From: Chlorobium sp.
GTDB lineage: Bacteria > Bacteroidota > Chlorobiia > Chlorobiales > Chlorobiaceae
DNA length: 64,000 nucleotides
Assembly (NCBI GenBank): GCA_005862225.1
Contig: SZXV01000010.1
Location: 124,001-188,000, forward strand
Direction: 5' to 3'
Part shown: piece by piece, positions 16,453 through 32,026 of the stretch
Layout: each line of letters starts with the position of its first letter
Position numbering within the stretch: position 1 is the first letter of the stretch
The notes under the pieces: generated by a model
Databases searched by the model: none
Seen by the model: the letters and a program-made list of their open reading frames with translations, nothing else
Told to the model about the DNA's origin: nothing
Program-made: the position numbers and the translations under genes

Positions 16453-16464
16453 AAGACCACACCA

Positions 16465-17046
16465 CTAAACCTTTTCTAATAAATATTTGATTTTTTTCTT
16501 GGCACGATTAACCAGTGTCGCAACTGTCCCTTGAGGTATCTGTAAAATATCAGATATCTCTTCATAGCTTTTTTCTTCAAAAAATTTCAGCACAATGACC
16601 TCTCGATACCTTGTCTCGATCCGGTTCACCGCTTCCTGAATTTCCTTTACGGTGTGCCTTTGACCTGCAAACTCAGTCAAGCCTGCGTCTGCTGCAATAT
16701 TTTCAAAAAAGCCATCACTCTCCCCCTTTATTAAAACGCTTGGGCGACTCCGTTCCTTTCGAAAATAACTTACTATTTCGTTATGGGCGATTCTGTAGAT
16801 CCAGGATGAAAACTGGAGTGAAGAATCGTAATCATTAAGATGAACAAACGTTTTGATGAATACTTCCTGAAGCAAATCCTCGGCTGCGGAATAATCCTTA
16901 CACCCCAAACGGACGATATATCTCAAAAGAGGTGCCTCATAGCGATGAACAATGGCGGCAAAAGCCCGTTTATTTTCAATCGCTCTGGCAACCAGCTCCT
17001 GATCAGTGTCGTGTAACTGTTCTCGACGTGTGGAAGTATGGGCCAT
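16465..17046 (-). CDS. RNA polymerase sigma factor, ECF (sigma-70 region 2 and 4)
   Basis: A 193-residue RpoE-type sigma factor. Region 2 is visible at about 25-100 (Y-S-A-A-E-D-L-L-Q-E-V-F-I-K and the -10-binding F-S-S-W-I-Y-R-I-A-H-N). Region 4 lies at about 130-190 (E-V-I-V-L-K-F-F-E-E-K-S-Y-E-E-I, then the helix-turn-helix I-P-Q-G-T-V-A-T-L-V-N-R-A-K). Regions 1 and 3 are absent, as expected for ECF. It heads a two-gene unit with the membrane protein. It lies 158 bp downstream of the last nitrogenase-like gene on the same strand; whether it belongs to that transcript is not clear. Confidence 0.92.
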   Translation of the reverse strand: MAHTSTRREQLHDTDQELVARAIENKRAFAAIVHRYEAPLLRYIVRLGCKDYSAAEDLLQEVFIKTFVHLNDYDSSLQFSSWIYRIAHNEIVSYFRKERSRPSVLIKGESDGFFENIAADAGLTEFAGQRHTVKEIQEAVNRIETRYREVIVLKFFEEKSYEEISDILQIPQGTVATLVNRAKKKIKYLLEKV

Positions 17047-17204
17047 ATATTGTGAAAACTCTTGAAGTCTCTTCTGTTATTGTCTTTCAAACGTTACCAC
17101 ATCTCCCGGCATGACTGTGTCCAACGTGAATTCGGTGTGCTTAATATATGACATAAGGAAATGTTCCGCCAAATATTATCAGCACGGGGTTTTCCCTTCG
17201 CTCA

Positions 17205-18527
17205 TTATGCCTCCTGAATCCTGTGACCTGATGCTGCAAGAAGTGCACTTCCAACATCTTCCAGCAGAGTTATTGCGCCACGATAACCAACCGTGCAACG
17301 GTTCAGTACCACCCTCTCTACCAAAGGAAATGAAAGCTCTAAAAACGGCACCCCCATCTCAAAAGCCACCTCTTTTTCAAGAGCACTGCCAAGCACCAGC
17401 TCAGCGCTGCTGGAACGCAGCCGATCAGTAATCTCACCGTGATCTTCGCTGAAAAACAGCTCAGTACCATAACCTTCCACAAAACTTGTCACGTATGAAT
17501 AAAGCGTCTCTCTTGCATGATCAGGCGGATTATCCGTCATAATTAACAGACGAGGAATCATACCGAGAGTTCCGGCTAAAAACTCACTGAAGCCAGCCAC
17601 CTGGGCGCTCTCTCCAACAAGAGCAAATTCACGCTGAAACCCTGAGCGATAATAAGTATCAGCAAGAGCTGCAAGATGATTTGTTAAACGATTCTCTTCG
17701 TCCTGAATAACTCTTTCAGCTCTTCTGGTGTCGAGATGAAGCCGTTCAGTGACAGCTTGCAGCATTCTTCCACTTGCACGACCTACAGGAAGAGCATCGA
17801 GCACAAGAGCCGGGGTTCCATAACGCTCTTCCAGAAGCTGAGCTGGAGTTTCACCCCAAACAGAAACAACAAGGTTCAGAACCGCCTCCGGAACCTGCTG
17901 CCACGCAGCAAGGCCCTGTCCATTGCCAAAAAGAAGATTTGGTTTAAGACCGACAGTTTCCAGCAAACGACCAATCTCCTCCAGATTTCCAAACCAGAAT
18001 GGATCCTGTTGAGGAACAATTCCCCAGATATTGACGATACTGTCCGATACCGGTTCTGCGACCTTCCCAAGTTTTGGTAATTGTTCAATCAGTGCCTTTA
18101 TGGTCAACTGATATCCTTGATGAACATCTCCCCGAAAACCGGGAGTATTGGCATAGATCACCGGGAAATCCTGTTCACGACCTTCTTTTGTCATGGCAGG
18201 GATATCGTCACCCACCATTTCAGTCGAGCACCCGGTTACAATGACATAGAGTTCTCCCTGAATAATTTTGACCGTGTTTTTGAGCTGTTCACGTAAACGG
18301 GATCCTCCACCGAAAACGATGTGCTTTTGACTGATATTACTCGATGAAACCGATGGGCCACCGAAAGTATCGTTGCCCGCATTCAAACGGGTAATGCCCA
18401 GATGATGCTGCATCCCACATCCCGCAGTGCTGTGTATAACTGGAACCGCCCCTTCAATTGCGCCGATAACCTGAAGTGCACCATGCAGGGCACAGGAATT
18501 GCGTGATCCCTCAATATGATGGGCCAT
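17205..18527 (-). CDS. nitrogenase-like catalytic subunit, NifK-type (three cluster cysteines)
   Basis: A 440-residue member of the nitrogenase component 1 / DPOR-COR superfamily. The three cysteines that hold the interface cluster in NifK align well: Cys12 (S-C-A-L-H-G), Cys37 (A-G-C-G-M-Q) and Cys100 (T-G-C-S-T-E-M-V-G-D-D). The intervening H-I-V-F-G-G-G and N-T-P-G-F-R-G motifs are also typical. It starts one base after the stop of the D-like gene, so the two are probably made in equal amounts and form a complex. It is not BchZ or BchB by pattern, and green sulfur bacteria keep bch genes elsewhere. It lacks the N-terminal extension of true NifK. Last gene of the operon. The reaction is unknown; reductive cleavage of an organosulfur compound is inferred from operon context. 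Confidence 0.85.
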   Translation of the reverse strand: MAHHIEGSRNSCALHGALQVIGAIEGAVPVIHSTAGCGMQHHLGITRLNAGNDTFGGPSVSSSNISQKHIVFGGGSRLREQLKNTVKIIQGELYVIVTGCSTEMVGDDIPAMTKEGREQDFPVIYANTPGFRGDVHQGYQLTIKALIEQLPKLGKVAEPVSDSIVNIWGIVPQQDPFWFGNLEEIGRLLETVGLKPNLLFGNGQGLAAWQQVPEAVLNLVVSVWGETPAQLLEERYGTPALVLDALPVGRASGRMLQAVTERLHLDTRRAERVIQDEENRLTNHLAALADTYYRSGFQREFALVGESAQVAGFSEFLAGTLGMIPRLLIMTDNPPDHARETLYSYVTSFVEGYGTELFFSEDHGEITDRLRSSSAELVLGSALEKEVAFEMGVPFLELSFPLVERVVLNRCTVGYRGAITLLEDVGSALLAASGHRIQEA

Positions 18528-18528
18528 G

Positions 18529-19944
18529 CTACTTTACCTCCATTTTGATATGCCAATTGGCACTGCGTCGAAGCCAGGCATTCTGATAGACTGAAGGTGA
18601 ACGGGCAATTGCTGACGCAAAGGAGCGGTTGCGCAATGCAGCGGCAAATCGTCGTGCTGCAAAGATTAATCCGTTGTATCCAAGAATCGGACTCTCCTCA
18701 AGTGAAACGACCGGAATACCGAGGCGTCCAATCTGACTGAGGTGCGCTGCGTCGCCAAGATAAAGATCCGGAGATAATCGTTTTATAATATTCACCTCCT
18801 CAAATGGCTGACCATCTGCAACATGTATCGGCAACGCTGGATGCATCAGGGCAAGTTCATGCAGCCGGTGCTTATACCGGTGGTCAATGTAGCGGAACGT
18901 TATACCAATAACTTCGCCTCCCAGTTCCTCAACAAGATCCAGCACACTGAACAGTGTTGCTGCTGAAAGACCAAGATAAACCCGTACTCCCTTGAGAGTA
19001 AAATTCCCCAGTGATTGTTTGACTTTTTTACACTCCTGTTCATGAAACGTTTGAGCGGCTTCTTCAAGACCAAGTTCCTTGCCTGCGGCTGCAAGCCAGC
19101 GTCCTGTGGCGCCAAGACCAATCGGCCGTGGTGCTTCAACATAGGGCACTCCATACTCGTCATGCAGGCAGATTCCTATATAATTACTGCTGTCATCATC
19201 AAGTGAGATGGATAGCCTGGCTCTCTGAGCCTGACGGAATGTTTTTGCTGAGGCTCCATCTGGAAGAGTGTTCAACTCAAGACCAAACACAGACAGAAGA
19301 CGTTCAGCCTCCCGTTGATCATCGTTGTGCCCGGCAACCGAAAGCAAATTGATCCTGTTCTCGTGTTGATGTTCATCACTTCGTTTTCCGCCAAGATACT
19401 TAAGCAATGCGTGCAGCGCTATATCATAACCGGTCACAGCATGGTGAGAGGCAAAACCAGTAACATAGAGCGGAATAATATCCACGTCAAGCGCTTCGTG
19501 CAACTCGTCAACAACAGACTGGATATCATCATTATTAATCGCCACAACAGGAGTAGCCACAATAAAGATCAATTCCGGCTTATAACGCTTATATGCCTCA
19601 GTGACGGCTTTGCGCAGCTTCAGGTCAGCCCCCATAATGGTATCTCTTTCGTCGAGATTGGTTACAATCCAGCACCCGGCAGCAACGGTCAAATGATAAA
19701 AAAGACCGGCAGCAGCACATCCCCGTGAACCATGGATGACGATGACACTCTCCCGGATACTTGCCAGAAGCCGAAGAGCATGAAGAAGATCATCATGGCT
19801 GCTTTGTGAAAAAGTACGAGTTCGCTTGACGGGCTCTTTTGTGGAAAATTCTCTCTCAAGAGAGTCCACCGTTCCCTGCAACGCATTCAAGGTGTCAAGC
19901 CGCTTCTCTCGTGTAAGGGAGGATTTGGCTTTCAAAAGAGACAT
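18529..19944 (-). CDS. nitrogenase-like catalytic subunit, NifD-type, lacking FeMo-co ligands
   Basis: A 471-residue superfamily member that aligns with NifD through H-G-S-R-G-C (Cys76, equal to NifD Cys88) and N-N-D-D-I (139-141), then the segment with N-Y-I (254-256) and E-Y-G-V-P-Y, and finally G-Y-N-G-L-I-F-A-A-R near 422-431. Two of the three P-cluster cysteines are missing: the first position is in F-S-Q-S-S-H and the third is A-T-P near 130-132. Counting back from N-Y-I, the residue at the FeMo-co ligand Cys275 is Asp249, and the His442 position is Leu421. Only one cysteine is therefore available for an interface cluster, complementing three in the partner. The gene lies 31 bp after the H-like gene. 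The active-site content is unknown. Confidence 0.85.
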   Translation of the reverse strand: MSLLKAKSSLTREKRLDTLNALQGTVDSLEREFSTKEPVKRTRTFSQSSHDDLLHALRLLASIRESVIVIHGSRGCAAAGLFYHLTVAAGCWIVTNLDERDTIMGADLKLRKAVTEAYKRYKPELIFIVATPVVAINNDDIQSVVDELHEALDVDIIPLYVTGFASHHAVTGYDIALHALLKYLGGKRSDEHQHENRINLLSVAGHNDDQREAERLLSVFGLELNTLPDGASAKTFRQAQRARLSISLDDDSSNYIGICLHDEYGVPYVEAPRPIGLGATGRWLAAAGKELGLEEAAQTFHEQECKKVKQSLGNFTLKGVRVYLGLSAATLFSVLDLVEELGGEVIGITFRYIDHRYKHRLHELALMHPALPIHVADGQPFEEVNIIKRLSPDLYLGDAAHLSQIGRLGIPVVSLEESPILGYNGLIFAARRFAAALRNRSFASAIARSPSVYQNAWLRRSANWHIKMEVK

Positions 19945-19975
19945 AGGCTAAAATCTATTATGTTAACATTTACGT

Positions 19976-20854
19976 TTAAATTGACGCCATATTATGAACA
20001 ACCCCGGACTCAACTTCAAATATTCTGTCGCCCCATGACCTTGCCCAGCGCTTTAATTCCGGAGCATTGAGAGGCTTTGGAATAACCGACTCCTCATTTT
20101 CATCAATATATCGAGCAAGATTGCGATAGACCTGAGCCTGCCCGGATTCAGGAAGCGCCTCAATGACCGTCTTGCCATAAAGTTCACTTTGTGCAACAGT
20201 GATGGATCTTGGCACATACCCCACGACGGTCGTCCCTGTTTGATCGGTAAAATCATCGATCAATGATTTGGCATAGGCCGCCTGAATACTGTTTGCTATT
20301 ACTCCTCCCAGTCGTGCGCCTCCCGATGGAGCGTATTTGTTTACGGCCTTGAAAAGATTGTTTGCTGCAAAAACCGCCATAAAATCCGATGACGTCACCA
20401 CAAAAACCCTGTCCGCAATACCATCCCGGATTGGAACCGCAAAACCCCCGCACACCACATCTCCCAAAACATCATAAAGCACAAAATCAGGCTTGTATTC
20501 TTCGAAGAGCTTCAATTCCTGCAAGAGTTCAACAGCCGCATTGATACCTCTTCCAGCACAACCAACTCCTGGAACAGGCCCCCCTGCTTCAATGCAAAGC
20601 ACACCACCAAAACCAACGGCGGAGACATCCTCGATCCTGACTTTACTCTGTTCACGCAGTGTGTCGAGTACGGTAGGCAGGTCATTTCCTCCACGCAGAA
20701 TCGTCGTTGAATCGCTTTTAGGATCGCATCCTATCTGAATAACCCTGTAACCTGCCTCGGCAAGCGCAGCACTGATATTGGAAGTCGTCGTGGATTTACC
20801 GATTCCCCCTTTGCCGTAAATCGCAACATGCTTGCCTTGTTTTTTTTCACTCAT
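19976..20854 (-). CDS. nitrogenase-like iron protein (NifH/BchX-type ATP-dependent reductase)
   Basis: A 292-residue homodimeric Fe protein that would pass electrons, driven by ATP, to the D/K-like complex. The P-loop G-K-G-G-I-G-K-S-T is at 14-22. The two [4Fe-4S] ligands are Cys99 (G-V-G-C-A-G-R-G) and Cys135 (D-V-V-C-G-G-F). Switch I (G-C-D-P-K-S-D-S-T) and the Arg102 that is ADP-ribosylated in NifH are present. The reading frame is open 45 codons further upstream, but the ATG at 20854 is preceded by AAGGAGT at ideal spacing and starts at the conserved family N-terminus. It is closer to NifH-like group IV and BchX proteins than to true NifH by eye; this needs a tree. Confidence 0.93.
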
Positions 20855-20885
20855 CTCAATACTCCTTTTTCTTGATTCTATATTG

Positions 20886-21686
20886 TCAGGCAATCCCCGC
20901 TTGACGCAGACCCGGCCAGGCTGATCCGCCGAGAGTGAACCCACCGCCCGAGATATCCAGCCGTGCACCTGAAATAAAAGATGCCTCATCAGAAAGAAGC
21001 CAGATGATGGGTTTGGCTATCTCTTCAACAAAGCCAGGACGACCTATCGGAATGGTTGAGGAGATCTCTTCAAGGATTTGCTGATCGGCCGCATAGACAG
21101 CAGTCATCTCTGTAAGGGTAAAACCGGGTCGCACAGACACTGCTCGTATTCCCTCTGAAGCTACTTCCTTCGCCAGGCCAACAGTAAAAGCATCAACCGC
21201 ACCTTTGGTGGCGGCATAAAAAGAGGCGCCCGGACGCCCTCCTATGGTTGAAGCCATCGACGAGATATTGATGATGACCCCACCCTGCCCCCCATGAACC
21301 GTAGACATCCGACGCACGGCCTCCTTTGTTGAAAGAATCAGGCCGACGACATTGATTTGAAACAGATGCTGCAGCCGGGCAGCATCAGCAGCATCAACAC
21401 GCGTGGGACCAGTACCCATACCAGCGCTGTTGACAAGCGCCGTAACCGTTCCAAGTTTTTCATCAACCTCCCTGTAGAGCCGCTCAATATCCTCTGGCCT
21501 TGCAATGTCTGCATATACCGCTATTGCTCGAACACCTCTCTCTTTCAATTTTTCAACAAGACGATTGGCCTCCTGTTCTCTGGTACGATAGTTGACAGCT
21601 ATCGAGTATCCTTTTTCCGCAGCGAGTCTGGCTGTTGCCGCACCAATCCCGCTGGCCCCTCCTGTAATGACCAATACTTTCGACAT
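20886..21686 (-). CDS. short-chain dehydrogenase/reductase (SDR)
   Basis: A 266-residue NAD(P)-dependent oxidoreductase of the classical SDR type. It shows T-G-G-A-S-G-I-G (about 8-15), N-S-A-G (about 88-91, usually N-N-A-G), the catalytic Ser (I-N-I-S-S-M, about 143) and Y-A-A-T-K (about 158-162), with P-G-F following. FabG-like, including R-P-G-F-T-L-T-E-M. The start chosen is the ATG at 21686, where [10 protein letters not shown] begins. It sits between a radical SAM gene and the Fe-protein gene, 31 bp before the latter, so it is part of the nitrogenase-like operon and may act on the same substrate or its carbonyl/alcohol product. Substrate unknown. Confidence 0.9.
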
Positions 21687-21724
21687 ATACTCTTTTCGTA
21701 TAAACTCCCTTTGAAAATGCCACA

Positions 21725-21761
21725 CAAGCCCCCTTATACAATAATTAAAAGAGGGGGCTTG
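21725..21761 (-). other. strong intercistronic hairpin inside the nitrogenase-like operon
   Basis: A 10-bp GC-rich stem (21725-21734 with 21752-21761, around AAGCCCCCT/AGGGGGCTT) lies 39 bp before the SDR start. No U-tract follows on the minus strand, so it is not a terminator. It may separate two mRNA segments, for example by protecting or processing the H/D/K part. Confidence 0.65.
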
Positions 21762-21783
21762 CCTTTTTCTTTGCTGCCAACAT

Positions 21784-21909
21784 GCCGCCCCTCCGGGGCT
21801 TGAATTCAAAATATGACGTTGCCACCCCCTTATTTCTTCAATGCCGTAAGCATGACATATTGGTAGAATGCAGCGTAACCCGTCGCCACCCTTCGGGGCT
21901 TGAAATCAA
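21784..21909. repeat. two REP-like palindromic repeats
   Basis: Two copies of a 25-26-bp unit, GCCNCCC(C)TNCGGGGCTTGAA followed by A/T-TCAA, at 21784-21809 and 21885-21909, in the same orientation 75 bp apart. Each contains a short CCCC/GGGG hairpin. They fill the 225-bp gap between the radical SAM and SDR genes and look like dispersed REP-type elements. Whether other copies exist in the genome cannot be seen here. Confidence 0.6.
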
Positions 21910-21911
21910 TG

Positions 21912-23105
21912 TCATGCCACCAGGCCCTTGAAAACCGGCAGCATTTCATCTTCAATCCGATAAATATCATGGATTATCGTTATTGGGGCTGCATAGCAAT
22001 CATAGATCTCCTCGTAGGTAAAACCGTACTTTCTGTAGATAGCCGCTATTTTCTTGTAAAGATCAAAATGCCAGGCTGGTTCTGGTGAACGATGTCCCTC
22101 AAAAGCAGAGCCCGGATTCGGATTCCAGCTTGTCGCAAAACAGATAACACCCTTGGATGCCAGATATTCAATACCTTCAAGTGTTGACTCCTTCGGTTCA
22201 AGGCCTGCCACGATGTTTGAACGCACCTTGCCCCGGCCAAAGACCTCCACTTCATACTCCAAAGCCTTGACCCAATGCTCCCAGCCACCACACTGCAGCT
22301 CCTTTCCGGGGCAGATCGCCTTAAACATATTTCTGTCCCAGACCTCAATATTGGTCGCAATGGTGCGATACCCGGCTTCCTTGTACTTGTCAATGATATT
22401 CAGGTCATGAGGAGCACCGACACAGGCCGTGCCGTTAAAATCATCCAGTCCGGTATGTTCCTTGATGGCATCTGCCACATCCAGGTAATACTCCACTTCA
22501 CGACGCTCAGCCACAAAACCGCCTGTTATGGTGAGATGACGCGCCCCATCCCGGTATGCCGCACCAACCGTTTCTCCGATCTGCTTTGGATATTTCCAGC
22601 CGATACCCTCTGCTTCGCCATAGGTATCTTTCGTCGCATTGATGTTGCAGAATTTGCAGTCCTGGCCTTTATCTTTCAGGGCACATTCGTTGCTGTAAGG
22701 AATAAGCAGCACTCCATCCTGAACATAGAGCGCCAGATTGGCCATGCTTGTTCCATCCGAAGTTTTCAGTTTGTAATAGTTTGGCCGCTCAAGAAATTCA
22801 ACCGGAAATATGATTTCTCCATGATGGGCCAGATAGTAGGTCCCCTTTTCATAGATAAATGAGTATGAAGAGCGGCGATCCCACTTGACGGTATAGACCA
22901 GACCGTGTGGAGAGCGGTAACCTGCCGGAAACTTGATTCCAACATGAGTCTCATGGTCTCCCTCGAAAAGACAGTGAACTTCCTCCTGAAAGCGTCCACC
23001 AAGGTCAAGGTGTTTAAAAATATGAGGATCAAAGTTGATGCCTTCAACCCCTGTTAATATTTTTAATTCCAGTTCCCGATACAATGTTTCTTTAAGATTA
23101 CTCAT
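21912..23105 (-). CDS. radical SAM protein with CX8CX2C cluster motif (paralogue 1)
   Basis: A 397-residue protein whose only cysteine cluster fitting a radical SAM site is Cys141-Cys150-Cys153 (C-A-L-K-D-K-G-Q-D-C-K-F-C), a CX8CX2C spacing in place of the canonical CX3CX2C. A glycine-rich T-I-T-G-G follows near residue 198, at the place of the SAM-binding GGE motif. The region N-I-E-V-W-D-R-N-M-F (about 249-258) is shared with the second radical SAM protein of this operon. The N-terminal 130 residues are a separate beta-rich domain. It could assemble or modify the cofactor of the nitrogenase-like enzyme, or act on the substrate. It is not NifB by motif. Position: between the ABC ATPase and SDR genes. 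Confidence 0.82.
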   Translation of the reverse strand: MSNLKETLYRELELKILTGVEGINFDPHIFKHLDLGGRFQEEVHCLFEGDHETHVGIKFPAGYRSPHGLVYTVKWDRRSSYSFIYEKGTYYLAHHGEIIFPVEFLERPNYYKLKTSDGTSMANLALYVQDGVLLIPYSNECALKDKGQDCKFCNINATKDTYGEAEGIGWKYPKQIGETVGAAYRDGARHLTITGGFVAERREVEYYLDVADAIKEHTGLDDFNGTACVGAPHDLNIIDKYKEAGYRTIATNIEVWDRNMFKAICPGKELQCGGWEHWVKALEYEVEVFGRGKVRSNIVAGLEPKESTLEGIEYLASKGVICFATSWNPNPGSAFEGHRSPEPAWHFDLYKKIAAIYRKYGFTYEEIYDCYAAPITIIHDIYRIEDEMLPVFKGLVA

Positions 23106-23158
23106 ACGTCTTTTCTCCCTGATTTTGAATTTATTGAGACTATTGAACTACTCTTTAA

Positions 23159-23935
23159 TTATATCGTATAGGTGAAATGAGGCTCGGTGTGCAGCATAAA
23201 CTCCTCAAGCACTTTTTCTTTCATTTCAGCAAACTCAACACTTGCCCGATCCCGTGGCCGTGCAAGTGGAACAGGAATAATTTTCTGTAATTTTCCTGGC
23301 CGTGCAGACATCACAACAATTTTATCCGAAAGATAAAGGGCCTCTTCAACATCATGAGTGACCATGATCATGGTTATATTTTCTTTCTTCCATATCCGCT
23401 CAAGCTCCTTGTGCATATACATTCTTGTTAAAGCATCAAGCGCACCAAGCGGCTCATCCAAAAGCAATATTTCAGGTTGATTGACAAGAGACCTTGCTAT
23501 TGCAGCTCGTTGTGACATTCCGCCGGACAATTGATATGGATAACTTTTTTCAAAGCCTTTCAATCCTACCAGTTCAATATGGTTGTTGACTATTTCCTTT
23601 TTCTCTGTGTCACTTTTACCGACAATGCCAAGCCCTATATTTTTTTCAACCGTCAGCCATGGAAAAAGGCGATGATCCTGAAACACAATTCCCCTGTCAA
23701 GACTTGGTCCGTTAAGTTTTCGCCCATCAAGAAGAATATCACCTTCATAGTCAGATTCTAACCCGACAATAAGTCGCAAAAGTGTTGTTTTTCCGCAACC
23801 GCTCAAACCAATAATGCTTATAAACTCTCCTGCCTTGACTGATAAGTTGATATTATCGAGAACATGAATTTCATTATTATTAACACGAAATTTTTTACTC
23901 ACATTCGTTACTGAAAGTGTTCCTGTACTTTTCAT
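23159..23935 (-). CDS. ABC transporter ATPase, nitrate/sulfonate/taurine type
   Basis: A 258-residue ATP-binding subunit of the SsuB/TauB/NrtD class, energising uptake of an oxyanion-like solute. It shows Walker A (G-L-S-G-C-G-K-T-T, about 43-51), the Q-loop (V-F-Q-D-H-R-L-F), signature L-S-G-G-M-S-Q-R, Walker B ([11 protein letters not shown]) and H-loop (V-T-H-D-V-E-E-A). It ends 53 bp before the radical SAM gene and begins 4 bp after the second permease, and partners the two permeases and the binding protein of this operon. The family imports sulfonates, sulfate esters, taurine, nitrate or thiamine precursors. The sulfur-linked leader favours a sulfur compound. Confidence 0.92.
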
Positions 23936-23939
23936 TGAT

Positions 23940-24737
23940 TTATCTTGATTGTTTCAATGTCAGTCTCCAGAAAGAGAAAAACATTTCCATTTTTTGCATA
24001 AAAAAATTCATTGTAAATCCAACTAATGCGATTGCAATAATACAGACAACAACCAGATCCATTCTGGAATATTCTCTGCACGCCCACATCATTTCACCAA
24101 TACCGCCTCCAGAGGTCATAAATATTTCAGCAGCAACAACCAGCATCCACGAAATACTCAAACTGAGTCGTAGTCCGGTCAGCGTTGAAGGAAAACTTGA
24201 CGGCAGAATAATTTTAAAAAAACGTTGAACTCTGTTGAACTTGAATACCTTTCCAACTTCGACATAATCGTTTCTGACATTTTTTACCCCTTCGAACGTA
24301 TTCAGAACAACAGGATAACAGGCTCCAATTGCGATAAAAAGCACACGGGACATTTCACCAAGACTGACCAGAACCAATAACGGAGCCCATGCGGGCAAGG
24401 GCACCTGCCGGATTGCATTAAAAATCGGAGTTATCAATTTTTCCAGAAACCTCGACATTCCGAGAGTTATTCCTATAACAAACCCGACTGTCGAACCAAG
24501 AAGAAAACCTTTCAATACCCTGATGACACTCATACCAAGATTATCAAGAAAACTTCCATCATTCAGGACTTCATGAAAGCCATTCACGACATCTCCAGGA
24601 GAGGGAAAAAAATCTTTTGATAGAATATTGAGCCTTGAACAGATCAGCCAGATAACAAAAATCGTTCCCGGAAGAAGAGTGCCTTCAAGCACTTTAATGG
24701 GCAAATATTTATTCCCCCTCACAGACAAAAAACTCAT
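23940..24737 (-). CDS. ABC transporter permease (SsuC-like) 2
   Basis: Inner-membrane permease of about 265 residues with six hydrophobic segments and the BPD_transp_1 EAA-type loop (the E-V-G-K-V-F-K-F-N region followed by I-L-P-S-S-F-P near residue 170). It is homologous to the first permease gene, so the transporter is a heterodimer. The start at 24737 (M-S-F-L-S-V-R-G) is preferred over an upstream ATG that would overlap the preceding gene by 53 bp. Two different permeases are less usual in this class, where a homodimer of one SsuC is normal. Confidence 0.88.
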
Positions 24738-24741
24738 GATT

Positions 24742-25524
24742 TTATTTTTTTGAGAGTGGACGATGCCAGCTAATAAGAGAAACTTCGAGAGCATTAAGTG
24801 TCAGAAACATCAGATATCCGATAGATCCAACGACTGCAATCCCCACAAAAACAATATCCATTTGAAACAACTGTCGCCCCCAGACAATAAGGTATCCGAC
24901 TCCCTCACCTGCCGCAACAAGTTCAGCTCCGACAACAAGCATCCACGACATGCCAAGTGCCAGTTTGATTCCTGTAAAAAGAGAAGGCAAGGCCGCAGGC
25001 AAAAGCACTTTATGAAGCAGCTTGGCTGAACTGAATTCAAAAGCACGGGCGACCTCAAGGTATGATCTGGGAACCCCGTGGATTCCTTCAAAGGTGTTGA
25101 TCAACATCGGGAAAAAAGCCCCAAATGCTATAAAAACAACTTTGAAGGTCTCTCCTATTCCAAACCAGAGCATCAACAGAGGAATCCAGCCGAAAAGCGG
25201 CACCTGACTCAAGGCGCTGAGCAACGGCGCTATAATACGTTCCGACCTTGGTGAAAGAGCCATCACCGTGCCAAAAATAAAACCAAGGGTGGCACCGAGA
25301 ACAAATCCAGTCAACACCCGATACATGCTGATCCGAAGATGCTCCAGCAATTCTCCTGTACTGATCAAGTCAAAAAAAGTAATCAGTACCTTGTGCGGAG
25401 CCACAACAATCTGTGATGGGAAAATTTCAAGCTTGCAGATTATTTCCAGGCCAATAACGAGCAGAACAGGAACGATAAACCCGATAAGAATTGTCTTGAC
25501 CTGTGTTTCTCCCTTAGTGTTCAT
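24742..25524 (-). CDS. ABC transporter permease (SsuC-like) 1
   Basis: A 260-residue inner-membrane permease with six hydrophobic segments and the family loop (E-V-A-R-A-F-E-F then V-L-L-P-A-A-L-P). The start at 25524 (M-N-T-K-G-E-T) overlaps the MFS gene by 11 bp, showing tight coupling. An upstream in-frame ATG would extend it deep into the MFS gene and is unlikely. Together with permease 2 it forms the membrane channel for the SsuABC-like importer. Confidence 0.88.
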   Translation of the reverse strand: MNTKGETQVKTILIGFIVPVLLVIGLEIICKLEIFPSQIVVAPHKVLITFFDLISTGELLEHLRISMYRVLTGFVLGATLGFIFGTVMALSPRSERIIAPLLSALSQVPLFGWIPLLMLWFGIGETFKVVFIAFGAFFPMLINTFEGIHGVPRSYLEVARAFEFSSAKLLHKVLLPAALPSLFTGIKLALGMSWMLVVGAELVAAGEGVGYLIVWGRQLFQMDIVFVGIAVVGSIGYLMFLTLNALEVSLISWHRPLSKK

Positions 25525-26737
25525 TGCTATACTCCTTGTTGAATGGCTGAACCAATAACGCGTCATCCACAACAGCGGCAGGGGCATTGTGACGCAGATA
25601 AAGTCTGACCGAGAGTGCCAGATAAAGAGGTATAAAAATCAGAAACACAGACCTTGCTCCGAAGAGCTCTCCTGCAAATCCTCCAACGACCGGTCCAATA
25701 ATTGAACCGGCTATAGTAAACATGGCAAACATACCCGCAGTCCTTCCTTTATCAACATTGGCGTATGCGATACGAGTCACATTAACCAGATTGAACATGC
25801 CAAGTCCGATTCCGACAAATACAGTGCCGATAACAAGGAAGAGTGGATGCCATAAACTGGAGAGAAATATCAGACCTGTAACGACAAAGGCAATACTTGT
25901 CAGATAAAAGCGACGTTCCCCGAGCCTGTCAAGCAGACGCCAGAGGGTAAACAGTGTTGCAATAAAAACCAGACCCTCTAATGACACAAACAATGACGCG
26001 ACCTGTGCCGAGATATGAAAAACACGAATCGCAAGAACAATGATAAAAGCATTGAAACATGAGAAGGTAGCCAGCGCCAACGCTTCTGCACTGGATGCCT
26101 CAAGGATATTGTGATCATGAAAAAGCTCCTTGACATGCCTCCATCTTTCAACAAGCGTACTTGCTCCGGAAGCTTTGGCATTAGGGAAAATGGCAAGCGC
26201 ACCAACGATCAGAAGAAGGACAGATACACTGACAGCATAAAAAGTGGCATTAAACCCCCAGTATTTACTCATGAACGCTCCGGACAATGGGCCAAGAAAT
26301 ACCATCCCGAATGAATGTGATCCCCTCTGCCAACCAGCCTTGTCACTGCCAATTGTCTTCACAAACTCCAGAAAAACGCTGCTCATCGGAATAAACCTGA
26401 ATGCAGAAAAAAAACCGACGATCGCAACGAAGTAGCAAAGAGTCTGTGATGAGTTCGCAAAGGGAAAAAGGAGATACAGAAGTGCCGTTGCCACAGCTCC
26501 AAAAATAAACACTTTCCTTGGGCCAACATGATCAACCAGAAAACCAATCGGCAACACCGTCAAAAGCAGACCAATTCCCTGCGCACCGCCGATCAATCCA
26601 ATCTGGGAGCTTGTCGCTCCAAGCTGTACGGCATAAAGTGTTATTGCAATCTGTGCAATCCCCATCCCCATTCCACCAAGAACAGAGAGAAACATAAACT
26701 GCACAAGCAGCTTGTTTTGACTTATTGACTCTGTCAT
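25514..26737 (-). CDS. major facilitator superfamily transporter
   Basis: A 407-residue MFS protein with about twelve hydrophobic segments and the loop-2 signature G-F-L-V-D-H-V-G-P-R-K (about 61-71), which resembles the canonical G-x-x-x-D-R-x-G-R-R/K. It starts 3 bp before the end of the FMN-barrel gene region and overlaps the next permease. Its place inside the operon suggests it moves a product out (for example the desulfurised residue) or a second substrate in. Specificity cannot be read from sequence. Confidence 0.88.
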   Translation of the reverse strand: MTESISQNKLLVQFMFLSVLGGMGMGIAQIAITLYAVQLGATSSQIGLIGGAQGIGLLLTVLPIGFLVDHVGPRKVFIFGAVATALLYLLFPFANSSQTLCYFVAIVGFFSAFRFIPMSSVFLEFVKTIGSDKAGWQRGSHSFGMVFLGPLSGAFMSKYWGFNATFYAVSVSVLLLIVGALAIFPNAKASGASTLVERWRHVKELFHDHNILEASSAEALALATFSCFNAFIIVLAIRVFHISAQVASLFVSLEGLVFIATLFTLWRLLDRLGERRFYLTSIAFVVTGLIFLSSLWHPLFLVIGTVFVGIGLGMFNLVNVTRIAYANVDKGRTAGMFAMFTIAGSIIGPVVGGFAGELFGARSVFLIFIPLYLALSVRLYLRHNAPAAVVDDALLVQPFNKEYSNEH

Positions 26738-26739
26738 GA

Positions 26740-27204
26740 CTATTGCCTCAATAAATCCAGATGGCTGTGAAACAAGCCTCTCTCTTCCTTTGCAAGAGAG
26801 CTTCGGTAGGCAGGAGATTCGTTTCGAATCTCTTCAGGCGTAATGACCCAGACACCCGCAATATCAGCCTCGGGGCCTCTTCTTTCCCGAGCCCGTTCAA
26901 GCATCTGCCTGAAAATGGCACCAGTAATCAAGTATTTGTAGGGATAACCCTTTATTTGATAACTGATAAGGCCCTTTGTAATATTAATGGCAACTTTTTT
27001 GTCGAACCAGATACTCCTGACCAGATTTTTATTACTGATCGAACTCTCGACCCCTTCCGCAAAAACAATTGTTTCATCATCAAGAGTGGTCAACGAGCCC
27101 TTGAAAACAACGTGAGGCACGCCATCACCATCAATGGTTGCGACCACTTTAACACTCCCCGTATCCTTAAGCAGACCAAGCAGCTCTTCCGGTAGTTTAC
27201 TCAT
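26740..27204 (-). CDS. pyridoxamine 5'-phosphate oxidase-like FMN-binding split-barrel protein
   Basis: A 154-residue flavin-type split-barrel protein. The N-terminal half has the pattern V-A-T-I-D-G-D-G-V-P-H-V-V (about 20-32), typical of PNPOx-like domains, followed by strand V-A-I-N-I-T-K and Y-P-Y-K-Y-L-I-T-G-A. The PLP-synthesis residues of true PdxH are not apparent. Such proteins often bind FMN, F420 or heme and reduce small organics. It has only one methionine after the start and no cysteine. It lies 17 bp after the second radical SAM gene. Role in the pathway unknown; a flavin-dependent step on the imported compound is plausible. Confidence 0.8.
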   Translation of the reverse strand: MSKLPEELLGLLKDTGSVKVVATIDGDGVPHVVFKGSLTTLDDETIVFAEGVESSISNKNLVRSIWFDKKVAINITKGLISYQIKGYPYKYLITGAIFRQMLERARERRGPEADIAGVWVITPEEIRNESPAYRSSLAKEERGLFHSHLDLLRQ

Positions 27205-27221
27205 CAGCGTTCCTCTCTTTA

Positions 27222-28475
27222 TTAGTTTAAGCGTTCCAGATCACTGTCGCCATGATTGCCGCAGTGTTTGAAATCATCGTTATCAGATGCAAGACCATAG
27301 CTTTTGCGAATCTCAACCAGTCCTTTAATCAATCGTACATAGTATTCGAGCGGTGGCTGCTCTTGCCCAGCCAACCCGGTGCTTTTCCAGGGCGTCCAGA
27401 CAAGACTCAGATAGATCACGCCATTTTTTGCGAAATACTCGCAAGCCTCAAAGTTAGAATCAAGCGCCTGCTCAATGCTTGTGAACCCATGGGGCTTCGC
27501 AAATTCGACACCTGCCACGAAATTGGTATAGACATTGCCTTTGCCAAATATTTCAACCGCATCAAGAGCACTCTTGATCCAGTAATCGCGGCCAAACCAC
27601 TTCTCCTTGCCACTGCAGATCCACTTAAAAAGATCCTTATCCCACACCTCAATATCCGGGCAGTAAGAAGAAAGACCCGTTTCATCATGAAGCCTTTTAA
27701 CTTGCTGCTTTGTATATGCAGGAGCAATTAACTGGCTGGGAAATCTTCTTGTTTTGAAGTTTCTTCCGATCGCCTGAAGCACCTCGATGTATCGTTCCAC
27801 CTCTTTATCGAATGGCACTTCGCCGGAATAATCCGTTCCTGCGGTCAAATTAATCTGGGAATATCGACCAGGCTCCTTCAGTGCTTCATGAACCGTCTCA
27901 TAAATATCTTCGGGATGAATGACCTTCTCATAGTTGTCACCAGCCGCCTGTTTCTGCTGTTTCAAATCGGTAAAAAATGCGCAGAATTTGCATTGATCCC
28001 TTGTGTCCCAGTAATGGCAGTATCGGTATGGAATAATGTCAAGGCGCTGAGGGCGAGACCAGGCAATTGATTCCATTGGAACACCGCGACTTGTCAACTT
28101 CCCATAAAAATCCGGTCTTGGTGAAAAATCAACCTCGTCAATCACCTGGCCTTTATCAAGTACGTAAAATTTGCCATCAACATGATCAATGGTGTACGGA
28201 TCAGAAAATTGGTTTTTCACCGGAGAAGCCAGCACGCTTGTGCCATCACGAAGAAGCAGTGGGCCGGGAAAAGGACGTTCCTGTTTTGCGCCTCCTGAAA
28301 ATGCTGTCTGTGCCGGACCTCGATAGTAAGGAGCATAGGTGGCTTCTGTCGTCGCATCAGTAAACGCTATCCCCCGTCTTTGCAAATCAAGTTTCAGAAT
28401 GACCGACTTTGGAACATCAGCATATTTTTCACTGAGGGCGGCAACACCAGGATTATTATTAATTGTCATTTTCAT
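27222..28475 (-). CDS. radical SAM protein with CX8CX2C cluster motif (paralogue 2)
   Basis: A 417-residue paralogue of the 397-residue radical SAM protein of the same operon. The cluster cysteines are Cys153-Cys162-Cys165 (C-H-Y-W-D-T-R-D-Q-C-K-F-C), again CX8CX2C. The shared block I-E-V-W-D-K-D-L-F-K-W-I-C-S-G-K-E-K and the later V-E-I-F-G-K-G-N-V show common ancestry. Having two such enzymes in one operon with a nitrogenase-like trio suggests two maturation steps or a heteromeric enzyme. It begins 69 bp after the binding-protein gene, with a hairpin in the gap. I do not know a characterised member with this cysteine spacing. Confidence 0.82.
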   Translation of the reverse strand: MKMTINNNPGVAALSEKYADVPKSVILKLDLQRRGIAFTDATTEATYAPYYRGPAQTAFSGGAKQERPFPGPLLLRDGTSVLASPVKNQFSDPYTIDHVDGKFYVLDKGQVIDEVDFSPRPDFYGKLTSRGVPMESIAWSRPQRLDIIPYRYCHYWDTRDQCKFCAFFTDLKQQKQAAGDNYEKVIHPEDIYETVHEALKEPGRYSQINLTAGTDYSGEVPFDKEVERYIEVLQAIGRNFKTRRFPSQLIAPAYTKQQVKRLHDETGLSSYCPDIEVWDKDLFKWICSGKEKWFGRDYWIKSALDAVEIFGKGNVYTNFVAGVEFAKPHGFTSIEQALDSNFEACEYFAKNGVIYLSLVWTPWKSTGLAGQEQPPLEYYVRLIKGLVEIRKSYGLASDNDDFKHCGNHGDSDLERLN

Positions 28476-28497
28476 TCTCTGTTTGATAGTTTATAGC

Positions 28498-28530
28498 CAG
28501 GAACCCACTTCGTCAGATAGTGGATTCCTG
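28498..28530 (-). other. intercistronic hairpin after the binding-protein gene
   Basis: An 11-bp stem with one mismatch (28498-28509 with 28519-28530; CAGGAA...TTCCTG and CCACT...AGTGG) fills the short gap between the binding-protein and radical SAM genes. There is no U-tract on the minus strand. This is the usual position of a stabilising hairpin that raises expression of a periplasmic binding protein above the rest of the operon. Confidence 0.65.
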
Positions 28531-28544
28531 ACAAACGAGTTATT

Positions 28545-29582
28545 TCAGTTCCAGAAATTTTCAAGCTTCAGCTCTTTTAATGCTGCATCCAAATAACTTC
28601 TGTCGATCCATGTGTTGACGTCAAACGTATTTCTTATCAGTCCCTTTTCTTTTGCGAAGACAATGCCGCCTGCATAATGATTTACATAGTCTTTATCAAA
28701 CAGAACATCATTAACATCCTTCAGGGTACGACCTTCGATTTCTTCAAGTGCTACAGCACGAGGCGTGCCTCCTTTGACAGCGATGTCCAGATATTCATTC
28801 CGATTTTTCTCATCAGATGCCCATTTAGCCGCCTCAACATACACTTTGACGATGCGCCTTGTTATATCAGGATATTCTTTTGCAAACTTTTCTGTCACAT
28901 AGAATCCACCTGTATTGCGCCAGTCACGCGGGCTCTGTTTTGTTGAATAAATAATTTTTGCATTACCCTGACTGCGAAGCAGCAATAGATTTGTCCAGGA
29001 AACAGATGCATCAATATTTTTTGTTTTCAATGCTGCATCAAGATCTGCAATACCGAGATTGTAAATTTTCAGATCACTCTCTTTCAAATTATTTGCCTCA
29101 AGAATGCGGGATAATGTCAGATGCGCATTTGTTCCCTTGAAAAGACCAACCCTCTTGCCTTTCAGATCTTTTATCGAGGTTATTTTCGAATCGTTTGGCA
29201 CGCCAACATAGACATTGGTATACTTGGAACCTCCTGCGATGAACTTTGTTTTCAGTCCGCCAGCTCTGCCAACAATTGCAGGAAGATCACCGATGTAAGC
29301 AAAATCAATTGCATGGTTTGCAAGCGATTCATTGGTTGCGGGCCCCGCACCTTTGAAAAAAGCCCAGTCAAATTTTATTCCGTCATTTTTAAACTCCTCT
29401 TCGAGAAGACCTTTGGCATGCACAATACCGATGATACCGGCGCCATACGGTTTTCCATAACCAGCAGAATATGCTGACCCGATACGAACAATATTTGGTT
29501 TGTTTTGAGCCGCCTGCGATGAAGTCCCGCCAAAAACAATGACAGTAATCAGGGCGACAATGATTGCGAATGTATGTTTCAT
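28545..29582 (-). CDS. periplasmic substrate-binding protein, SsuA/TauA/NMT1-like, free of Cys and internal Met
   Basis: A 345-residue periplasmic binding protein for the SsuABC-like importer. The signal peptide (about 1-25) ends at S-S-Q-A-A. The mature part has the NMT1/SsuA-type order: I-V-H-A-K-G-L-L-E-E-E-F, then I-D-F-A-Y-I-G-D-L-P-A-I, L-K-G-K-R-V-G-L-F-K-G-T, and D-A-S-V-S-W. I read no cysteine and no methionine after the initiator in the whole protein, a sulfur-sparing composition known from sulfur-starvation proteins. A GGAGAG ribosome site precedes the ATG. It follows the porin gene by 33 bp. Confidence 0.92.
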   Translation of the reverse strand: MKHTFAIIVALITVIVFGGTSSQAAQNKPNIVRIGSAYSAGYGKPYGAGIIGIVHAKGLLEEEFKNDGIKFDWAFFKGAGPATNESLANHAIDFAYIGDLPAIVGRAGGLKTKFIAGGSKYTNVYVGVPNDSKITSIKDLKGKRVGLFKGTNAHLTLSRILEANNLKESDLKIYNLGIADLDAALKTKNIDASVSWTNLLLLRSQGNAKIIYSTKQSPRDWRNTGGFYVTEKFAKEYPDITRRIVKVYVEAAKWASDEKNRNEYLDIAVKGGTPRAVALEEIEGRTLKDVNDVLFDKDYVNHYAGGIVFAKEKGLIRNTFDVNTWIDRSYLDAALKELKLENFWN

Positions 29583-29615
29583 GATGATACTCTCCAGAGA
29601 AATGAAATTGATTGA

Positions 29616-30935
29616 TTAAAAGGTGTACTGAAGCTGAGCAAGAAACTCATTGTTGGCAACCTGGTTGCTCTCCTCAGTTATGATGTTGTAATTGATCTGC
29701 AGCTTGGTGGTCTGGGCAAAAAACCAGTTAAGTCCGATGGTGGTGATATCTTTCCGGTTGCCATTGACGCTCGTATCCGGATCCCAGCGATCAAACCTCA
29801 CGAAAGGCTGAAAAGTGGTTGGATACCAGTCATCATAGCGATCCTGGGCTTTATAACCACTGACGAATTGTTCACCCTGGTTGTAAAAAACGGTAACCGT
29901 ATGCCCACTCTTTTTGATCGTCCCATCCTCTCCTCTTGCATACTCAATGGTGAAGCCAACAGGAGTATTGACATAAGAGAGATCAAAACCGCTCCTGTTT
30001 TTTTCCACATTACCCAGGGAGCCACTCTTGCCAGAGTAATAAGAGGCTCCAAACGATAAGCCGCGAAAGACTGACGAATAGTCAACAGGAGCATTGAGCA
30101 CAATCCTGCCCGAAATATCTTTATGTTTATTGTCGTCGGAAAGCGTGGAATAGCCATACGCGTCAGAACCTCTGCCGTTAAGAATGCCTACTGAGTATTC
30201 GATGGCAGGAACGCGATAGCGAAATCCGGGGTCAAATTGTGGAAATAAATCTCCTTTAATGACAATTCCGAGATCACGCGCATCAAGATCAATCCCTGTG
30301 CCAGCTCTTGCAGATTGTGCAAGTTTGATCGTCGGTTTTTTATCTTCTCCGGCAAGAGCTTCAAGACCAAAAGGTTTTTTCTGCTTTCCAGCAGTGATAC
30401 TTAAAAGCGGATCTTCAGGATTCAGAGAAGGCAGAATAAAGGCCGTGATATAGGCATCAAGAGGACTTACCCTGAAATCCGTGGTGCCATCTGCATTTGC
30501 TCCACTTGGAGATGCAAGACTGAACAGATAGTTGACATTACGTCCCTGTTCGTAATCTCGCTTGAGACTTCCCTGAAAATTGAGCACAAGCGCATTCAGG
30601 TCAAAACCATTCCTGGTCGCATTGTGCTGTGTCGAGTATCTGAGTTGGGCGATGCCTGTAAAAATAAGAGAACGCTGCGTGCGCGCTGTATTGTTTTCAA
30701 GCGTCCTCTGCCACAACTCCTGTAATGTTGCAACCTCGCCCCTGACGCCCTCGAGTTCCTCTCTGGTAACCGGCGTCTCTGCCTTTACCGGTTCATCGAC
30801 CGCAACAACTTCAGCATTACCCGGACGAGATGCAGCGACCTTCGTATCAACTGTACTCTTGTCAGCAGCTTGCAGATTGGCATTACCAATCAAAAAGCTT
30901 CCGATAAGAAATATTCCAATTTTAATTTTACTCAT
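29616..30935 (-). CDS. outer-membrane porin (phosphate-selective porin O/P-like), free of Cys and internal Met
   Basis: A 439-residue outer-membrane beta-barrel protein, first structural gene of the operon. The signal peptide is about 1-23 (ending L-Q-A-A-D). A short coiled-coil segment follows (E-E-L-E-G-V-R-G-E-V-A-T-L-Q-E-L-W, about 58-74), then alternating beta strands and a C-terminal Phe (L-A-Q-L-Q-Y-T-F), the normal barrel insertion signal. From the ATG at 30935 there is no cysteine and no further methionine. An ATG 13 codons upstream lies close to the terminator hairpin and is less likely. It would let the substrate through the outer membrane. Confidence 0.88.
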   Translation of the reverse strand: MSKIKIGIFLIGSFLIGNANLQAADKSTVDTKVAASRPGNAEVVAVDEPVKAETPVTREELEGVRGEVATLQELWQRTLENNTARTQRSLIFTGIAQLRYSTQHNATRNGFDLNALVLNFQGSLKRDYEQGRNVNYLFSLASPSGANADGTTDFRVSPLDAYITAFILPSLNPEDPLLSITAGKQKKPFGLEALAGEDKKPTIKLAQSARAGTGIDLDARDLGIVIKGDLFPQFDPGFRYRVPAIEYSVGILNGRGSDAYGYSTLSDDNKHKDISGRIVLNAPVDYSSVFRGLSFGASYYSGKSGSLGNVEKNRSGFDLSYVNTPVGFTIEYARGEDGTIKKSGHTVTVFYNQGEQFVSGYKAQDRYDDWYPTTFQPFVRFDRWDPDTSVNGNRKDITTIGLNWFFAQTTKLQINYNIITEESNQVANNEFLAQLQYTF

Positions 30936-30957
30936 GATGATGTGATTCAAATTATTT

Positions 30958-30996
30958 AAAAAAAAAGCCGACACTTTGACATTAAGAATCGGCTTT
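30958..30996 (-). terminator. intrinsic terminator between leader ORF and first operon gene (attenuator)
   Basis: On the minus strand an 8-bp stem (AAAGCCGA with TCGGCTTT; 30989-30996 and 30964-30971) with a 17-nt loop is followed by a run of nine T (the stem's last three included) at 30966-30958. It lies 28 nt after the leader stop codon and 22 nt before the porin start, so transcription must pass it to enter the operon. This is the layout of a transcription attenuator. A further AU hairpin (31004-31023, 8-bp stem) lies just upstream. Confidence 0.85.
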
Positions 30997-31024
30997 CGTA
31001 TAAACTTTTTTCTATAAAAAAGTA

Positions 31025-31108
31025 TTATTCGATAGCAATAAATTTAATGCTCAGATATTGTTGTAACCAACAACAACAGCAAAAAAATAATACAGGAGTT
31101 ATTTTCAT
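31025..31108 (-). CDS. 27-residue leader peptide with four consecutive cysteines
   Basis: A 28-codon ORF including TAA, starting at the ATG at 31108 and reading M-K-I-T-P-V-L-F-F, then Cys-Cys-Cys-Cys (TGC TGT TGT TGT, 31081-31070), then W-L-Q-Q-Y-L-S-I-K-F, ending in A-I-E. It lies about 85 nt downstream of the predicted transcription start and directly before an intrinsic terminator. This is the arrangement of ribosome-mediated attenuation, with stalling at Cys codons when charged tRNA-Cys is scarce. The Cys codons overlap a possible hairpin (31058-31063 with 31068-31073 or 31071-31076). There is no clear Shine-Dalgarno site. The ORF is read directly; the regulation is inferred. Confidence 0.82.
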   Translation of the reverse strand: MKITPVLFFCCCCWLQQYLSIKFIAIE

Positions 31109-31179
31109 AACATTGATTGAATTAAAATATTGTTCTTTATTTCTTGTCATCAAGATCAGCAATAAATAAAAACTTTCAA

Positions 31180-31197
31180 ATCCCGTTTAAACGGGAT
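31180..31197. promoter_or_regulatory. 18-bp perfect palindrome at the predicted transcription start
   Basis: ATCCCGTTTAAACGGGAT is a perfect inverted repeat located 3 bp downstream of the -10 box, covering the predicted start site on the minus strand. This is a typical place for a repressor operator. It would also form a hairpin at the 5' end of the mRNA. The regulator is unknown. Confidence 0.7.
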
Positions 31198-31199
31198 AT

Positions 31200-31227
31200 T
31201 GTATACCATAAACGAGTTATTTTTCAA
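31200..31227 (-). promoter_or_regulatory. sigma-70-type promoter of the nitrogenase-like operon
   Basis: On the minus strand TTGAAA (31227-31222), a 16-bp spacer, then TATACA (31205-31200) followed by AT. The nonamer TATGGTATA occurs twice, at 31210-31202 (overlapping the -10) and 31244-31236 (just upstream of the -35), 34 bp apart, and may be an activator or repressor site. The 330 bp further upstream to the divergent DUF4293 gene hold nothing I can name. Confidence 0.65.
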
Positions 31228-31559
31228 GAAAATTATATACCATATAACATACCTCCGGATACATTGATATTGAATCTATGCTGAGTCGCCTTACAATCAA
31301 CACCGTTTTAAACCTTAAATAATTTTATTGCCGACATGAGCTGACCGTAAATAATCATACAATGAAACCATATCTTTCATGCTAATATCTCACTTGTATT
31401 ACTCTTGAAAAATCACATGAAAAAGGTATTTTTCATGCCCTAAAGAGGTGAGATGGGCCGCATATTTATCATAAGAGCATTTTTCCTTCAAGACTCTTTT
31501 CTCCTGATTGTGTATATTGTTGGCAACCGTTTCAATGAAATCTTAACCGCACAACAACC

Positions 31560-32024
31560 ATGGTAGCCAGAATTCAAAATCTTTACCTGTTCCTTGCCGG
31601 TTTGCTTGCTCTCTTGAGCATGTTTTTCCCCTTCTGGAGTTTCAGCGCCGGAAACATCTTTCTCATCTCCGATGTTGGCTCTTCAACAATTCCTGATTTG
31701 GTCTTTTCTGTCGCAACTCATGCCGGGCTCATCTTTTCACCGCTGACTGCCTTAATTTCGGTTACTGCTATTTTTTTCTTTAAAAACCGGGCATTGCAGA
31801 GCAAGCTTATTTTGCTGGCCATCCTTCTCTTCCTTGGCGATCTCTTCTCGGGACTTACGGCTGCACACGTGATGAACCAACATTTACAAACCATTGGAGC
31901 TGCCATAACACACAAACCCGAAGCAGGATTTTTTATACTTCTGCCAGAACCAGTGCTGCTTCTGCTTGCTTTGAAAGGAGTTAAAACGGACGATAAAATC
32001 GCCAACGCATACAAAAGGCTCTGA
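31560..32024 (+). CDS. DUF4293 family membrane protein
   Basis: A 154-residue protein with four hydrophobic segments. It begins M-V-A-R-I-Q-N-L-Y-L-F-L-A, the hallmark of DUF4293, a family largely confined to Bacteroidetes and Chlorobi. Function is not known. It lies 2 bp before pdxA on the same strand, with ftsE-like next, so the three are probably one operon. It is divergent from the nitrogenase-like operon, sharing the 620-bp regulatory region. Confidence 0.8.
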   Translation: MVARIQNLYLFLAGLLALLSMFFPFWSFSAGNIFLISDVGSSTIPDLVFSVATHAGLIFSPLTALISVTAIFFFKNRALQSKLILLAILLFLGDLFSGLTAAHVMNQHLQTIGAAITHKPEAGFFILLPEPVLLLLALKGVKTDDKIANAYKRL

Positions 32025-32026
32025 AG

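Follow-up and report, generated by a model that had tools for sequence, protein, structure and literature searches.

Two radical-SAM proteins from separate ancient clades in a predicted isethionate reductase-type operon of a Chlorobiaceae bacterium

The window analysed here (64,000 nucleotides of Chlorobium sp., GenBank assembly GCA_005862225.1, contig SZXV01000010.1, forward-strand positions 124,001 to 188,000) carries a 13-gene operon that encodes two radical S-adenosylmethionine (SAM) proteins of the NCBIfam family NF045502, rSAM1 and rSAM2, together with the nitrogenase-like subunits H, D and K (HDK). Judged by sequence, the locus is an Isr-type operon joined to a second radical-SAM module, and thus a variant of a system already known, the isethionate reductase IsrBHDK described from Rhodobacter capsulatus in 2024 (PMC11423573). 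Family membership, clades, gene neighbourhood, co-occurrence with Isr genes and the cysteine pattern of IsrHDK are established at the sequence level and form the basis of this assignment. The reading that we favour, at somewhat better than even chance, is that an organosulfonate or similar anion is taken up, that a radical generated by rSAM1 or rSAM2 acts on this substrate, and that rSAM1 works with H/D/K in the release of sulfite, the rSAM1 paralogues of related genomes being substrate-specific proteins that share one H/D/K.

Isr-type subunits and the multiplication of rSAM1

rSAM1 is 47.5–49% identical to the radical-SAM protein encoded directly upstream of HDK in R. capsulatus SP108, and the two fall into one clade of the family tree (support 0.999); rSAM2 lies outside this IsrB clade, in a clade of its own (support 1.0). 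IsrD is reported to possess a single conserved Cys, the remaining two P-cluster positions being occupied by Arg and Pro/Ser, and IsrK to possess Cys12, Cys37 and Cys99 (PMC11423573). In agreement with this pattern, D of the window exhibits Cys76, Arg43 and Pro132, with one Cys conserved across eight IsrD sequences, and K exhibits Cys12, Cys37 and Cys100. It is because rSAM1 groups with IsrB and neighbours H/D/K genes of this cysteine pattern that the locus is regarded as Isr-type. Identity to the R. capsulatus subunits is 72.7% for H, 31.6% for D and 36.5% for K, the low values of D and K indicating that the reductase core has diverged. In R. capsulatus, anaerobic growth on isethionate as sole sulfur source is lost in mutants of isrB, isrH or isrDK and also requires ssuCAB; isrBHDK together with ssuCAB confers this growth on R. 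sphaeroides (PMC11423573). The window shares with that locus the radical-SAM, H, D and K genes and an SsuABC-type transporter, but differs in the second radical-SAM clade with its PNPOx-like partner, in a short-chain dehydrogenase (SDR), two permeases, a major facilitator superfamily (MFS) transporter and a porin, and in having relatives in which rSAM1 is multiplied.

An IsrD gene is present in 54 of the 55 genomes that carry rSAM1 (22/22 Chlorobiaceae, that of the window included, and 32/33 others). Each of these 32 genomes from outside the Chlorobi has exactly one IsrD-like gene, scoring at least 469 bits, with other nitrogenase-like genes reaching at most 342 bits; IsrD is single copy in all rSAM1 genomes but two (G137 and G197, two copies each). 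The sole exception to co-occurrence, Cereibacter ovatus (L132), retains isrB and K, lacks D and has an H truncated after residue 186, and its Isr locus represents either a decayed operon or an assembly fault. Seven genomes of an order-wide sample of 392 have IsrD, and the two that were new (G893 and G921) both carry rSAM1. Of 398 genomes sampled across the phylum Bacillota, 17 pass the NF045502 cut-off and, besides the centre genome, none has IsrD at the Isr level; in one of the 17 (G552), divergent K- and D-like genes lie close to the radical-SAM gene at a contig end. Members of the family as a whole are thus found without Isr, but the rSAM1 clade proper is not. As a separate expansion, three clostridial genomes (G315, G321, G712) hold many further nitrogenase-like D genes, at 225–342 bits to the IsrD profile and with up to ∼25 matches per genome.

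The copy number of rSAM1 departs from that of the reductase. Two to six rSAM1 genes accompany one IsrD in 18 of the 33 non-Chlorobi rSAM1 genomes, isolates such as Clostridium polyendosporum, C. luticellarii and Ruminiclostridium hungatei among them, and on Chlorobiaceae contigs G137:C26, G248:C29, G201:C66 and G217:C189 six or seven rSAM1 genes surround one HDK. The paralogues on one contig are 65–87% identical, and for nearly all copies of G248 a copy in a different species is at least as good a match as their own paralogues. The array copies are thus orthologous across species, which implies that the arrays predate those species and are not local duplicates. One array radical-SAM gene (G343:C168:11682-12402) contains internal TGA and TAG codons and is an apparent pseudogene. 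No multiplied radical-SAM arrays were found in the open-access literature searched. In a homology scan that took the transporter proteins of the window as its only queries and applied a score limit, ATP-binding cassette (ABC) transporter genes were found at a distance of at most 4 kb from 95 of 134 rSAM1 genes and 23 of 34 rSAM2 genes, and from none of the 16 other family members, BciD included, that made up the control group. The multiplication of rSAM1 beside transporters, with HDK single, therefore favours a role in substrate specificity over that of a maturase.

The radical-SAM family, its fold and the rSAM2 module

The cluster motifs of the two proteins read C141-ALKDKGQD-C150-KF-C153 in rSAM1 and C153-HYWDTRDQ-C162-KF-C165 in rSAM2, and both contain IEVWD (NIEVWDRN and DIEVWDKD, respectively), 112 and 122 residues past the first Cys. 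They align with 29% identity across 316 residues (E = 3e-38) and score 478 bits (rSAM1) and 217 bits (rSAM2) against NF045502 (‘variant_rSAM’), both above its curated cut-off of 125; they are the only members of this family found in the genome of the window. CX8CX2C arises in 0.37% and 0.16% of shuffles of the two sequences, and its three Cys columns are occupied in 184, 183 and 184 of 184 family members, so that the motif is not due to chance. A fourth Cys, within C[P/S]GK (C265 of rSAM1, C287 of rSAM2), is present in 177/184. The preliminary description of this DNA, made from the letters alone, had reported open reading frames of 397 and 417 residues in one operon, now placed on the minus strand, and had recognized both products as radical-SAM proteins with a common Cys-x8-Cys-x2-Cys and IEVWD; the alignment, the NF045502 scores and the conservation across 184 members bear this out. 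It had also called the motif unusual, which holds relative to CX3CX2C. The spacing is nevertheless a hallmark of the whole family, including BciD-type, MSMEG_0568-type and other subfamilies, rather than of this pair, and the fourth Cys had been missed.

The breadth of the family limits what membership reveals. NF045502, with CX8CX2C throughout as in the window pair, models a domain and not a function, and spans IsrB, BciD and other subfamilies. BciD of brown green sulfur bacteria shares the family and Cys spacing and performs radical chemistry on a small molecule (PMC3613366), yet the sequences taken as BciD, which were identified by score and presence pattern rather than by name, are 24.0% and 19.7% identical to the window proteins, group outside both clades and have no transporter or HDK beside them. 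MSMEG_0568 radical-SAM proteins (TIGR04043) likewise have CX8CX2C and a related fold, but the window proteins score 117.5 and 55.6 bits against this model, far under its curated cut-off of 303.7. A plasmid search gave distant matches only, mostly MSMEG_0568-type at ∼25% identity, a sequence search of solved structures returned no relative, and no CX8CX2C radical-SAM family was found in the open-access literature searched. Among further variants, a Bacillota subclade basal to rSAM1 (L148, L150, L151) has C-S-H-x6-C-x-F-C, with HDK or matching transporter genes not found nearby, and two members (L152, L155) have an additional Cys-rich stretch, CGCVNCNCC, suggesting an extra cluster.

Predicted structures (mean predicted local distance difference test of 82.2 for rSAM1 and 84.7 for rSAM2) both adopt a radical-SAM barrel in which strand 1 (132–136 in rSAM1) is followed by the Cys loop, although in the rSAM1 model the three-Cys loop itself is of low confidence. 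The structure prediction put forward as a check in the preliminary description gives a partial (β/α)6 barrel whose topology fits radical SAM. Lipoyl synthase is the best fold match (rSAM1: Z 17.5, root-mean-square deviation 4.0 over 257; rSAM2: Z 18.2, 3.4 over 237), followed by HydE, HydG, MqnE, biotin synthase and NifB. All radical-SAM barrels resemble one another, and a common fold gives no function. IEVWD lies at predicted β-strand 4 of the barrel (strand 246–250), which we take to be the seat of the ribose-binding motif in radical-SAM enzymes, and is therefore part of the shared fold and no separate coincidence.

Because rSAM1 and rSAM2 fall into separate clades of the tree, the divergence of the twins is older than the phyla in which they occur; a recent tandem duplication was rejected on the same tree. 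Open frames of 831 residues, which had raised the possibility of fused double radical-SAM proteins, resolve into separate neighbouring genes when stop-to-stop frames are considered. rSAM2 has its own gene neighbourhood: a PNPOx-like gene adjoins rSAM2 in 28/34 cases and rSAM1 in 0/134, one gene first filed under ‘other’ having been moved to rSAM2 by hand (Fisher P = 2e-26, to be read as a guide only since these counts, like those of the transporters, are drawn from related sequences). rSAM2 together with ABC genes occurs in genomes without IsrD (G193, G117, G260, G712, G537, G492, G519), and the six members of the window's rSAM2 subclade occur in loci or genomes with Isr. Thus, rSAM2, a flavin-fold (PNPOx-like) protein and a sulfonate-type ABC transporter constitute a second module that is also present in Isr-free genomes. 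The preliminary description had held that its proposal would fail if the proteins were widespread without a nitrogenase-like gene; rSAM1 comes through with IsrD in nearly every genome, and rSAM2 does not as far as Isr genes are concerned. In G153 the operon is otherwise similar, but this rSAM2 and its PNPOx gene have been lost and a more distant rSAM2 is kept downstream of K. The PNPOx-like proteins beside rSAM2 (L153–L160 and window 26740–27204) fall short of the Pfam cut-off, and they may form a subfamily not yet described.

Proposed roles and competing explanations

We infer a sulfonate as the substrate of this operon, action of the radical on that substrate, and different substrates for the paralogues. 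An organosulfonate or similar anion would be imported by the porin, the SsuA-like binding protein, the two permeases and the ATPase. rSAM1 and rSAM2 would each bind a [4Fe-4S] cluster via C-x8-C-x2-C, cleave SAM and use the 5′-deoxyadenosyl radical on the small molecule itself, and reduction at the D/K cluster, with ATP-driven electrons handed over by H, would follow or accompany this step, such that with rSAM1 the carbon–sulfur bond breaks and sulfite is freed for sulfur assimilation. rSAM2 and its flavin-fold partner would carry out a reaction of their own, either on that compound or on a different imported one, and the multiplied rSAM1 of relatives would be substrate-specific versions operating on one shared H/D/K. 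A broader proposal, which we advance tentatively and at somewhat less than even chance, is that one H/D/K is served by up to seven exchangeable radical-SAM proteins, often tied to uptake, which set the carbon–sulfur compound to be attacked, and that rSAM2 with its flavin-fold partner is a related HDK-independent anaerobic system, a candidate for a new anaerobic reaction.

Several points weigh against substrate-specific action. The discoverers of IsrB call its role unclear (PMC11423573); SsuA-type proteins bind many anions, and the substrate of the window operon is a prediction; for 39 of 134 rSAM1 genes no such transporter was found in the 4 kb around them, in some cases owing to contig ends, and the transporter scan was confined by its queries and score limit and by its small control group. 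The rSAM1 paralogues could also be forms of one activase that differ in regulation, and one SAM per substrate is a costly outlay for a sulfur source, though sulfur assimilation needs little flux.

An activase role, in which the radical-SAM proteins would, for example, generate a protein radical in H/D/K or modify one of its residues or a small cofactor, is the alternative to which we give most weight while still considering it unlikely. The near-perfect co-occurrence of rSAM1 and IsrD is consistent with it, as is the activation of the isethionate lyase IslA by IslB in this manner (discussed in PMC11423573). It leaves unexplained, however, the multiplication of rSAM1 beside transporters with one HDK and the occurrence of rSAM2 in Isr-free genomes, and the characterized family member BciD acts on a small molecule (PMC3613366). 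Slightly less probable is a locus that has left the isethionate role and handles another imported anion or an aromatic compound. The divergence of IsrD (see above), the diverse ligands of SsuA/NMT1-type binding proteins and the extra SDR, MFS, rSAM2 and PNPOx genes would fit such a change; against it stand the closely similar H, the Isr cysteine pattern, a binding protein that passes the aliphatic-sulfonate family cut-off and permeases that best fit SsuC or SaoP models.

The NifB role suggested in the preliminary description, in which rSAM1 and rSAM2 would supply H/D/K with a nitrogenase-like metal cluster that they assemble, is very improbable. NifB and MarB are indeed radical-SAM proteins encoded with nitrogenase-type enzymes, isrB deletion abolishes growth on isethionate (PMC11423573), and NifB is one of the fold matches (Z 13.7 and 16.3). 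Nevertheless, lipoyl synthase fits the fold better, and the window pair belongs to another family, NF045502, with a different Cys arrangement in which only four Cys are conserved, three of them for the cluster; the pair has CX8CX2C in place of CX3CX2C, and its NCBIfam and Pfam matches include no NifB family. NifB and MarB build an [Fe8S9C]-type cluster, and MarB in this service keeps the NifB motifs (PMC12552129), whereas IsrD has one conserved Cys and is reported to lack FeMo-co ligands (PMC11423573). Six or seven rSAM1 per HDK would also be unexpected of a maturase. The heterodimer envisaged in the same description, with rSAM1 and rSAM2 acting in a single step, is more improbable still. Both occur in the same operon order in several Chlorobiaceae (G181, G189, L088), but R. 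capsulatus has one family member in its genome, so that rSAM1 alone suffices there, rSAM2 occurs without rSAM1 in G193, G117, G260 and G537, and the loss in G153 and a split older than phyla argue likewise. The better half of that earlier proposal is ‘two successive steps’ or ‘substrate activation’.

The part played by the radical-SAM partner in isethionate reductase was left open on its discovery (PMC11423573, the sole paper on it that the literature search turned up), and the contrast between one reductase and many radical-SAM paralogues near transporters bears on it. Should exchange of paralogues change the substrate, nitrogenase-like enzymes would possess an add-on system for specificity, and anaerobes of lakes and guts would reach sulfonate sulfur via many undescribed enzymes.

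Operon layout and neighbouring sequence

The 13 genes, all on the minus strand, overlap or nearly abut except for a 225-base gap ahead of the SDR gene (Table 1), and run in the order porin (OprO/P type), SsuA-like binding protein, rSAM2, PNPOx-like, MFS, two SsuC-like permeases, ATPase, rSAM1, SDR, H, D and K. The position of the SDR is conserved in Chlorobiaceae loci.

Table 1. Features of the operon, in window positions
Feature	Position	Strand	Remarks
rSAM1, 397 aa, IsrB-clade radical-SAM protein (NF045502)	21912..23105	-	478 bits to NF045502; R. capsulatus SP108 homologue; tree support 0.999
rSAM1 cluster loop C141-x8-C150-x2-C153, after predicted strand 1	22647..22685	-	
rSAM1 C265-P-G-K, with the family's fourth, nearly invariant Cys	22302..22313	-	177/184 relatives
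rSAM2, 417 aa, second ancient clade of NF045502	27222..28475	-	217 bits; own clade, support 1.0
rSAM2 C153-x8-C162-x2-C165	27981..28019	-	
rSAM2 C287-S-G-K	27606..27617	-	
PNPOx-like split-barrel (flavin-type) protein, usual rSAM2 neighbour	26740..27204	-	PF01243, 22.5 bits, under curated cut-off 28.1
NifH-like subunit (IsrH type)	19976..20854	-	PF00142; start moved downstream of listed ORF, from homologues
NifD-like subunit (IsrD type), Cys76 + Arg43 + Pro132	18529..19944	-	PF00148
NifK-like subunit (IsrK type), Cys12, Cys37, Cys100	17205..18527	-	PF00148
SDR between rSAM1 and H	20886..21686	-	PF13561/PF00106; start moved to family start
ABC transporter ATPase, sulfonate/nitrate/taurine type	23159..23935	-	
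ABC permease, SsuC/SaoP-like	23940..24794	-	
ABC permease, SsuC-like	24742..25587	-	
MFS transporter	25514..26737	-	
SsuA-family substrate-binding protein	28545..29582	-	TIGR01728, 169.9 bits, cut-off 163.5
Porin, OprO/OprP type, first gene of the run	29616..30974	-	PF07396, 46.4 bits

No Rfam families were found within window 15000–33000, and promoter and terminator scans gave sites more numerous than in shuffled sequence, no single one of them decisive. Downstream of the operon (window 15682–17046) lie genes for an extracytoplasmic function (ECF) sigma factor and a 256-residue membrane-type protein of unknown kind.

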